Positions 49,803 through 51,876 of a DNA stretch of 64,000 nt are shown one piece after another. The DNA is from Subtercola lobariae (GTDB taxonomy: Bacteria > Actinomycetota > Actinomycetes > Actinomycetales > Microbacteriaceae). Below the pieces are notes generated by a model, which saw only the letters and a program-made list of their open reading frames with translations, made no database searches and was not told the origin of the DNA. The DNA lies in the NCBI RefSeq assembly GCF_014640255.1, contig NZ_BMGP01000002.1:310001-374000 (forward strand), given 5' to 3'. Both the position numbers and the translations under genes were made by a program. How positions within the stretch are numbered: position 1 is the stretch's first letter; every line of letters begins with the position of its first letter.

Positions 49803-51434
49803 CTACTCCCACTCGATGGTGCCCGGCGGCTTCGACGTCACGTCGAGCACGACGCGGTTTACGCCGGCGACCTCGTTCGTGATGCGGTTCGAGATGCGCG
49901 CCAAAAGGTCGTACGGCAGGCGCGTCCAGTCGGCCGTCATGGCGTCTTCAGAAGAAACAGGCCGCAAGACGATCGGATGCCCGTAGGTACGCCCATCGCC
50001 CTGAACCCCCACCGATCGAACGTCGGCGAGCAGCACCACGGGGCACTGCCAGATCTCGCCGTCGAGCCCCGCGGCGGTGAGCTCGGCCCGCACAATCGCG
50101 TCGGCCGCCCGCAGCAGCTCCAGCCGCTCGAACGTCACCTCGCCCACGATTCGAATTCCGAGCCCTGGCCCGGGGAACGGCTGACGCCCCACGATGACCT
50201 CGGGCAGCCCGAGCTGACGCCCAATGGCCCGCACCTCGTCTTTGAAGAGTGTGCGCAGCGGCTCGACGAGCGCGAACTGCAGATCTTCGGGCAGCCCGCC
50301 CACGTTGTGGTGGCTCTTGATGTTCGCGGTGCCGGTTCCGCCGCCCGACTCCACGACATCGGGGTAGAGCGTACCCTGCACGAGAAACTTCACCGGCTCA
50401 CTCGCCGCGTCGGCCGCGGCCTCGAGAACGAGCGCCTCGGCTGCCCCTTCGAAGCTCCTGATGAACTCGCGCCCGATGATCTTGCGCTTCTGCTCGGGGT
50501 CGGTGACGCCGGCGAGAGCGTCGAGAAACTGCTCACGGGCATCCACTGTCACCAGGCGAACGCCGGTTGCAGCAACGTAGTCTTCTTCGACCTGACGGCG
50601 CTCGTCGGCGCGCAGCAGCCCATGGTCGACGAAAACGCAGGTGAGCTGGTCACCCACCGCTTCGTGCACCAGCGCGGCGGCTACCGCCGAGTCGACCCCG
50701 CCCGAGAGCCCGCAGATGACCTTGCCCGAACCCACCTGCGCACGAATCGCGGCGACCTGGTCGGCAATCACGTTGCCGCTGTTCCAGTCGGCCGGTATGC
50801 CTGCAGCGGTATGTAAGAAGTTCTCGAGCACGTTCTGCCCGAACTGGGTGTGCTTCACTTCCGGGTGCCACTGCACACCGTACTGCTGCTTCGCGTCGTT
50901 CGCGAACGCGGCAACGGGGGTGGATGCACTGCTCGCCACCACCGTGAAACCCTCGGGTGCCTTCGAAACCTGGTCACCGTGGCTCATCCACACCGTCTGG
51001 TCGACGGGCTGGCCGCCGAGCAGCACTCCCCCGTCGCCCGTAACCGCCATGTCGGTGGCGCCGTATTCACGCAGCCCGCTGTGCGCCACCTCACCGCCGA
51101 GGGTCTGCGCCATCACCTGAAAGCCGTAACAGATGCCGAGCACCGGAACACCGAGGTCGAAAATCGCGGGGTCGAGCCCAGGCGCGCCCTCTTCGTACAC
51201 GCTCGACGGGCCGCCGCTCAGCACGATTCCCACCGGCGACTTTGCCGCAACCTCGGCCGCGGTGATGTTGCTCGGCACGATCTCGCTGTAGACGCTCGCC
51301 TCGCGCACGCGTCGCGCGATCAACTGCGCGTACTGCGCACCGAAGTCGACGACCAGAACCGGGCGAGCGGGCGACGCGGGCGCTGAAACTGACGCTGACG
51401 CTGACGGAGAAACTGACGCTGACGGGTTACTGAT
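49803..51434 (-). CDS. guaA: GMP synthase (glutamine-hydrolysing), apparently with an ATC start
   Basis: GMP synthase makes GMP from XMP, ATP and glutamine. The glutaminase domain shows [18 protein letters not shown], Cys in LGICYGFQ and QWHPE; the ATP-pyrophosphatase domain shows [13 protein letters not shown], and the C-terminal dimer domain ends PPGTIEWE. The essential N-terminal strand [10 protein letters not shown] lies upstream of the first ATG/GTG/TTG codon (TTG 51323). Going further upstream, no ATG, GTG or TTG occurs before an in-frame TAA. ATC at 51432-51434, six bases after GGAGG, gives a natural-looking N-terminus (x-SNPSASVS) and 543 residues. It overlaps the DUF3817 stop by 8 bp. 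Either a rare start codon or a one-base change from ATG. Confidence 0.93.
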
Positions 51435-51876
51435 GGGTTGCCTCCGCGGTTCGGGTTACAACGGCAGCCTCACGGCCAGCCAGGTACGCCCTGATCTCGC
51501 GCGCCGTGCGGCCCTCGAGAAAGAACGAAAGAAACGGAATGACGCCGCCGAGAGCCAGCAGCAAGAAGCGGTTGAAGCCCCACCGCATGCGAGACCAGAC
51601 CTGAAAGCACGAGAACAGGTACACCACGTAGAACCAGCCGTGCACGATGAGGATGCCCGTAGAAAGGTTCACACTGGTCACCGTGCCAACCGGCACGAAC
51701 GCCAAGAACCCTTGCGGGCCGCCCAGCTCGACCTCGACGCCGATGGGGGTGTACTTCAGAATCATCTCGAGGCACAGCAGCAGCAGCAAGGTTCCGGTGA
51801 TGATGGCGCAGACCTGGTAGAACTTCAGGGCCGAGCGAATGCGCGGAAAGTCCTTCTGTTTCGGCTCGAGGGGCAT
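51427..51876 (-). CDS. DUF3817 integral membrane protein
   Basis: A 149-residue membrane protein with three segments ([50 protein letters not shown]) and the conserved HGW...YLFSC...W arrangement of DUF3817, a family that often neighbours guaA in actinobacteria. Function unknown. Its last codons contain the ribosome-binding site of guaA and its stop overlaps the proposed guaA start. Confidence 0.85.

Follow-up and report, generated by a model that had tools for sequence, protein, structure and literature searches.

Where does translation of guaA begin when its reading frame offers no ordinary start codon ahead of the conserved protein? The question arises in a stretch of 64,000 nucleotides of the Subtercola lobariae genome (the window), which carries guaA on its minus strand (Table 1). 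A preliminary description had stated that neither ATG, GTG nor TTG (the canonical starts) lies between the TAA closing the frame upstream and the conserved N-terminus of GuaA, and that a perfect GGAGG stands six bases ahead of an ATC; both statements were confirmed on the window sequence. From the TAA onward the frame reads CCC GAA CCG CGG AGG CAA CCC ATC AGT AAC CCG TCA, and further on it enters the core as CCG GTT CTG GTC GTC GAC TTC GGT GCG CAG TAC. The peptide encoded directly after the ATC is SNPSASVS, which begins an extension built of short repeats whose length changes quickly between species (in one relative, L005, NVIPD is repeated there). The first canonical start codon is found only inside the core. 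These features, together with the ATC or ATT found at the same place in relatives, support the proposal that translation starts at the ATC, and guaA of this genome is very probably translated from it.

Table 1. Features at the guaA start site and its surroundings, in window coordinates.
Feature	Position	Strand	Remarks
guaA, glutamine-hydrolysing GMP synthase	49803..51434	minus	543 aa when read from ATC
Proposed guaA start codon ATC	51434-51432	minus	Basis: sequence and relatives
Shine-Dalgarno GGAGG	51445-51441	minus	6 nt before guaA ATC
Spacer CAACCC between GGAGG and ATC	51440-51435	minus	
In-frame TAA upstream of ATC	51458-51456	minus	Closes guaA frame
TTG, first canonical start codon in guaA frame	51323-51321	minus	Rejected as start; within conserved core (QLIARR)
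GuaA N-terminal extension, variable and low-complexity	51360..51431	minus	Separates start from conserved core; end position approximate
Upstream DUF3817 gene, overlaps guaA start	51427..51876	minus	PF12823 75.9 bits, TIGR03954 62.5 bits, both above cut-off
TAA stop of DUF3817 gene	51429-51427	minus	Begins 5 nt after first base of ATC

The GuaA protein scores 762 bits against NCBIfam NF000848 (cut-off 400), exceeds the cut-offs of TIGR00888 and TIGR00884, and contains the Pfam domains GATase (PF00117, from residue 27) and GMP_synt_C (PF00958). The gene is present as a single full-length copy; a second copy that could have freed this one to decay was sought, and the two other matches in the genome are partial and 25% and 31% identical. 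Translation might instead begin internally, at the TTG or at a near-cognate GTT or CTG of the V-L-V at the core entry, with the ATC being incidental. A mechanical open reading frame finder does choose the TTG, but a start there would remove a stretch that is aligned in solved GMP synthases. In the five best-matching solved bacterial enzymes the alignment begins at query residue 25 or 26, and in one of them (2ywb) at its own residue 2, so that a start at the TTG would cut the amidotransferase domain. Downstream of guaA on the minus strand lie open reading frames for a TetR-like regulator (49084-49716) and an ABC transporter (47351-49087), both named by eye. A simple sigma-70 scan of 51200-53000 found no promoter at the junction with the DUF3817 gene, which is weak evidence in an actinobacterium.

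The codon was compared among close relatives, as the preliminary description had proposed. Of the 12 genomes in the genus, seven carry ATC and five ATT at the site, always with GGAGG six bases upstream. An AUU or AUC start is known from few bacterial genes, which agrees with the papers cited below. This rarity, and nothing further, speaks for the other possibility raised in that description, a sequencing error or recent single-base mutation from ATG; with ATC or ATT at the same position throughout the genus and in 35 genera, it is effectively ruled out.

The survey was extended to 177 genomes of the Microbacteriaceae, of which 174 were fetched and 171, in 83 genera, were readable; two without a match (G022, G195), one whose match was not fetched (G140) and three lacking the anchor motif (G025, G092, G161) are excluded from the counts. 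Two records placed in this family, Labedella phragmitis and Ruicaihuangia caeni, match surveyed genomes with full identity across the 300 bases compared. The best-placed guaA start is ATT (59) or ATC (11) in 70 of the 171 genomes and 35 of the 83 genera, and canonical in 98 (GTG 61, ATG 33, TTG 4). Among the three others, L231 was scored ATC while its genus mates have GTG at about the same place, and it was removed from both groups; L261 and L262 are unclear. Two genomes were placed in the ATT group by hand, as L145 exceeds the 60-codon limit and the Shine-Dalgarno sequence of L203 has decayed. ATT starts occur in Corynebacterium-like bacterium B27, Amnibacterium flavum, Microbacterium sp. STN6, a Homoserinimonas MAG and Ruicaihuangia caeni. 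ATG is found in Labedella and in three of four named Cryobacterium records (the fourth is L038), GTG in Agromyces, and most Microbacterium records are canonical. Outside the family, 12 loci of the same order (L244-L255) were examined, and in none does an in-frame ATT or ATC follow GGAGG at 5-8 nt.

Several records call for separate comment. The guaA of L052, in an assembly titled Stenotrophomonas maltophilia P13, is 81% identical to that of the window, as in Microbacteriaceae, and is probably on a stray contig. Contig C1 of G149 has three equal-score guaA matches near contig ends, two of them opposed and about 300 bases apart, which looks like an assembly fault. L261 and L262 (genus g104) have genomes of about 1.1 Mb, and ahead of the core their closed guaA frame offers only ATC ATC AGA, with neither a canonical codon nor a clear Shine-Dalgarno sequence; this may be another noncanonical start. 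L203 (G105) has retained ATT AGT though its GGAGG has decayed, and its start is either weak or in decay. L150 and L170 (genus g99) have ATC (6 nt after GGAGG) and ATT (9 nt) adjacent; they were counted as ATT in the family profile and as ATC in the frame test described below, so that 59:11 could be 57:13.

In the 70 genomes with an ATT or ATC start, the guaA frame is always shut by an upstream stop, and the stretch from start to core, 6 to 67 codons long, is always free of in-frame stops; its third-position G+C content is 81%. Past the closing stop and ahead of the core, 47 of the 70 have some in-frame canonical codon, and the other 23 have none. One with a Shine-Dalgarno match, upstream or downstream of the ATT or ATC, is absent from 62; among the remaining eight it lies upstream in six and downstream in two. 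Internal initiation could draw on the 27 genomes with a canonical codon between the proposed start and the core, often the GTG of V-L-V, two of them with a Shine-Dalgarno sequence (L147, L164). Against it, the other 43 of the 70 have none, and GGAGG with ATT or ATC stays constant in front of a stretch that varies so much in length and is open in every genome. An internal start is thus very unlikely, and AUC or AUU is very likely the genuine, conserved start of guaA.

This profile is partly circular, since the 70 genomes were selected for ATT or ATC behind a GGAG-type sequence. The observation that a NAT codon of the upstream gene invariably overlaps the start is an outcome of that selection and carries no weight. 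The count of GGAGG in 61 of 70 such genomes against 30 of 98 canonical ones is biased by the same requirement and is superseded by the start-blind count below. The start codon is predicted to be mostly unpaired in the RNA (0.80, n=70, against 0.36, n=99), which partly reflects base composition. The 59:11 ratio of ATT to ATC at the start differs from the 30:419 ratio of isoleucine codons within guaA, a comparison confounded by an overlapping stop that needs T.

Because of this circularity, the test was repeated blind to the start codon. The only criterion for sorting the genomes was the frame in which the DUF3817 stop stands with respect to guaA. The DUF3817 gene has a tblastn match at 168 of 174 family loci, and 163 of the 171 genomes were usable; six had no usable DUF3817 match and two had a distant stop. 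A GGAGG was counted if it was exact and at most 30 bases before that stop. Frame class 2, which has the frame relation of the window, holds 71 genomes in 36 genera, and 63 of these have an exact GGAGG. Every one of the 63 has ATT (51) or ATC (12) in the guaA frame 5-7 nt downstream of the GGAGG, and none has ATG, GTG or TTG at that place. Frame class 1 holds 89 genomes in 44 genera, of which 34 have an exact GGAGG; the in-frame codon that follows is GTG in 25, TTG in four, ATG in one and another codon in four, and ATT or ATC follows at 5-7 nt in none of the 34. Chance is no explanation for a site with ATT or ATC after GGAGG in 63 of 63 genomes. Among the class-2 genomes lacking an exact GGAGG, five have ATT with a weaker Shine-Dalgarno sequence (L026, L141, L175, L176, L203) and three have a canonical start: G114 and G176, both with a distant stop, and G037. 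In G037 an AGGAG precedes the GTG by seven bases and the DUF3817 stop lies at +8, which shows that a canonical start is possible in the class-2 frame.

The two frame classes also differ in how the DUF3817 stop overlaps the guaA start. In 56 ATT genomes the stop begins at the third base of the ATT (ATTAG or ATTAA); the figure comprises 54 genomes and two that also have a downstream canonical codon with a Shine-Dalgarno sequence, with L145 and L203 read by eye. In the ATC genomes the stop lies three bases further, at +5 (10 genomes), and in genus g37 it lies at +10 in the other frame (offset 1), in one ATT and one ATC genome. The overlap is thus lifted in 12 genomes, and the start is still ATC or ATT. 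Among canonical relatives with a DUF3817 match, 85 loci are in the other frame (offset 1), mostly with GTGA or ATGA overlaps. Since the two kinds of overlap sit in different frames, a switch between the canonical class and the ATT/ATC class needs an insertion or deletion.

The arrangement also recalls programmed frameshifting, as in prfB, where a GGAGG-type sequence stands just before a stop codon. Here the GGAGG lies just ahead of the stop of the upstream frame, and as a stimulator it might promote a frameshift near the stop that fuses DUF3817 to GuaA. Most of the ATT/ATC genomes would need a +1 shift, but the two g37 genomes would need one in the opposite direction, and the codon ahead of the stop, mostly CAT, does not resemble a slippery one. 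The stop is also 3 nt later in the ATC genomes, and the other frame class has an ordinary canonical start with a Shine-Dalgarno sequence at the same place. A frameshift is therefore extremely unlikely.

A stronger rival accepts AUU or AUC as the real start and denies it any regulatory role. A one-base insertion or deletion would have changed the frame of DUF3817 relative to guaA, the stop would have been retained only with T as the third base of the start codon, and the strong GGAGG with re-initiation would make AUU good enough. The exact position of the stop in the 56 ATT genomes would keep ATT in place with no benefit to guaA, and the 85 canonical loci in the other frame fit the same account. 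The start class is moreover predicted by frame class and not by genus. These data suggest a lock: for a stop to be kept here in this frame, the start must end in T, which leaves AUU as the sole passable codon. Twelve genomes free of this lock have nevertheless stayed with ATC or ATT when a single substitution would give ATG, which favours a weak start being wanted, although independent escapes are few. The start has also changed between ATT and ATC at least five times, and none of the 63 class-2 genomes with GGAGG has a canonical codon there. The harmless relic is a serious possibility, placed a little short of an even chance.

The history of the trait was followed on a tree of 165 genomes, built from GuaA and DUF3817 pieces with 256 columns kept, in which many forks are weak. 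At least 15 changes of start class are needed, and starred branches force no fewer than six of them; the changes between ATT and ATC noted above were read from the same tree. The ATT/ATC start can be read only as an old, clustered and reversible trait. Because 98 family genomes are canonical and the state has changed so often, the weak start of guaA is dispensable. The pattern GGAGG-N5-7-ATTAR has no match in the genome of the window. The 12 genomes of the genus hold 15 matches, against 17 for a reversed control; the guaA starts of the five ATT genomes account for five of the 15, and the other ten lie elsewhere. The N6 form is likewise not confined to guaA, with one more match (in G008).

AUC- and AUU-type starts are known to be held in check by the translation factor IF3. 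The gene for this factor, infC, shares the trait: in the genome of the window (L135, contig C8) it reads AAAGGAG and then ATC AGC GAT. Of 30 infC loci, 28 could be read, and every one of these starts with ATC; the motif did not parse L274 and L299. Gene callers restricted to ATG, GTG and TTG would misplace this start as well. In a Streptomyces study, infC is described as starting with ATT in Escherichia coli and ATC in Streptomyces, with IF3 autoregulating through this codon (PMC5472188). The same study showed the GTC start of sigR to be under IF3 repression; this start is conserved within Streptomyces, where it has been misannotated (PMC5472188).

On this basis a mechanism can be proposed. 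The ordinary initiator tRNA would read AUC with a third-position mismatch, helped by the strong GGAGG. A special initiator tRNA was considered, and a genome search with an initiator-type anticodon-stem pattern, one anticodon base left free, matched a single tRNA-Met(cat) (a reversed control gave two matches). As IF3 rejects starts beyond AUG, GUG and UUG, the weak codon would hold GuaA synthesis low and IF3-sensitive. A shortage of IF3 relative to ribosomes would raise guaA along with infC, because the latter also begins with AUC in this genome. Ribosomes ending DUF3817 may additionally re-initiate at the overlapping guaA start. Control by IF3 is made more plausible by the ATC of infC in this genome and by the published repression of sigR. 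Restraint of GuaA synthesis by IF3 would stand at an even chance; it is about as likely as the harmless relic. In every sequence feature tested, guaA conforms to the pattern of the published noncanonical starts.

Judged from its own sequence and that of its relatives, guaA joins the few genes whose noncanonical start is conserved, and adds to them an unusual stop/start overlap. No report of a noncanonical guaA start was found among open-access PMC papers. Like infC, guaA has a conserved AUN-type start with a Shine-Dalgarno sequence. The two differ in that IF3 regulates its own gene, whereas the product of guaA is a nucleotide enzyme and the guaA start overlaps the stop of the gene before it. 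Another enzyme gene, pcnB of E. coli, is reportedly limited by an AUU start, going by the title of the study; by that title it resembles guaA in both respects, in a different phylum. The overlap itself resembles the ATGA and GTGA junctions of many canonical guaA relatives, in which stop and start share bases and translation is probably coupled. It differs from them in that the third base of AUU is shared (AUUAG) and the frame offset is the other one.

The closest studied parallel is sigR of Streptomyces, which is likewise actinobacterial, noncanonical in its start, preceded by a strong Shine-Dalgarno sequence and conserved in its lineage (PMC5472188). It differs in using GTC rather than AUU or AUC and in encoding a sigma factor, and the effect of IF3, proposed for guaA, was demonstrated for sigR (PMC5472188). 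In Staphylococcus aureus, AUU and AUA starts with an extended Shine-Dalgarno sequence were mapped by ribosome profiling (PMC13009471). These starts, of cvfC1 (AUU) and ccpN (AUA), are conserved in one lineage and belong to a small protein and a regulator, whereas guaA is a metabolic enzyme gene whose start is read from sequence (PMC13009471).

The conserved AUU/AUC start described here belongs to a core metabolic gene and spans 35 genera. With ATT, ATC, GTG, TTG and ATG all in use, the locus forms a natural series of start codons for asking why a weak start persists, and at its AUUAG stop/start overlap the frame predicts the start codon. If the start is as proposed, then for these genomes any gene caller limited to ATG, GTG and TTG must set the GuaA N-terminus at the wrong place. 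More tentatively, and with rather less confidence than is given to IF3 restraint itself, guaA and infC of the Microbacteriaceae may form a small regulon read by IF3, in which the capacity for GTP synthesis would go up when IF3 is scarce relative to ribosomes and the AUUAG overlap would couple guaA to DUF3817. Such a regulon would link purine supply and initiation capacity through the choice of start codon across dozens of genera. If the IF3 reading is true, the supply of guanine nucleotides in these bacteria may depend on the state of the translation machinery.
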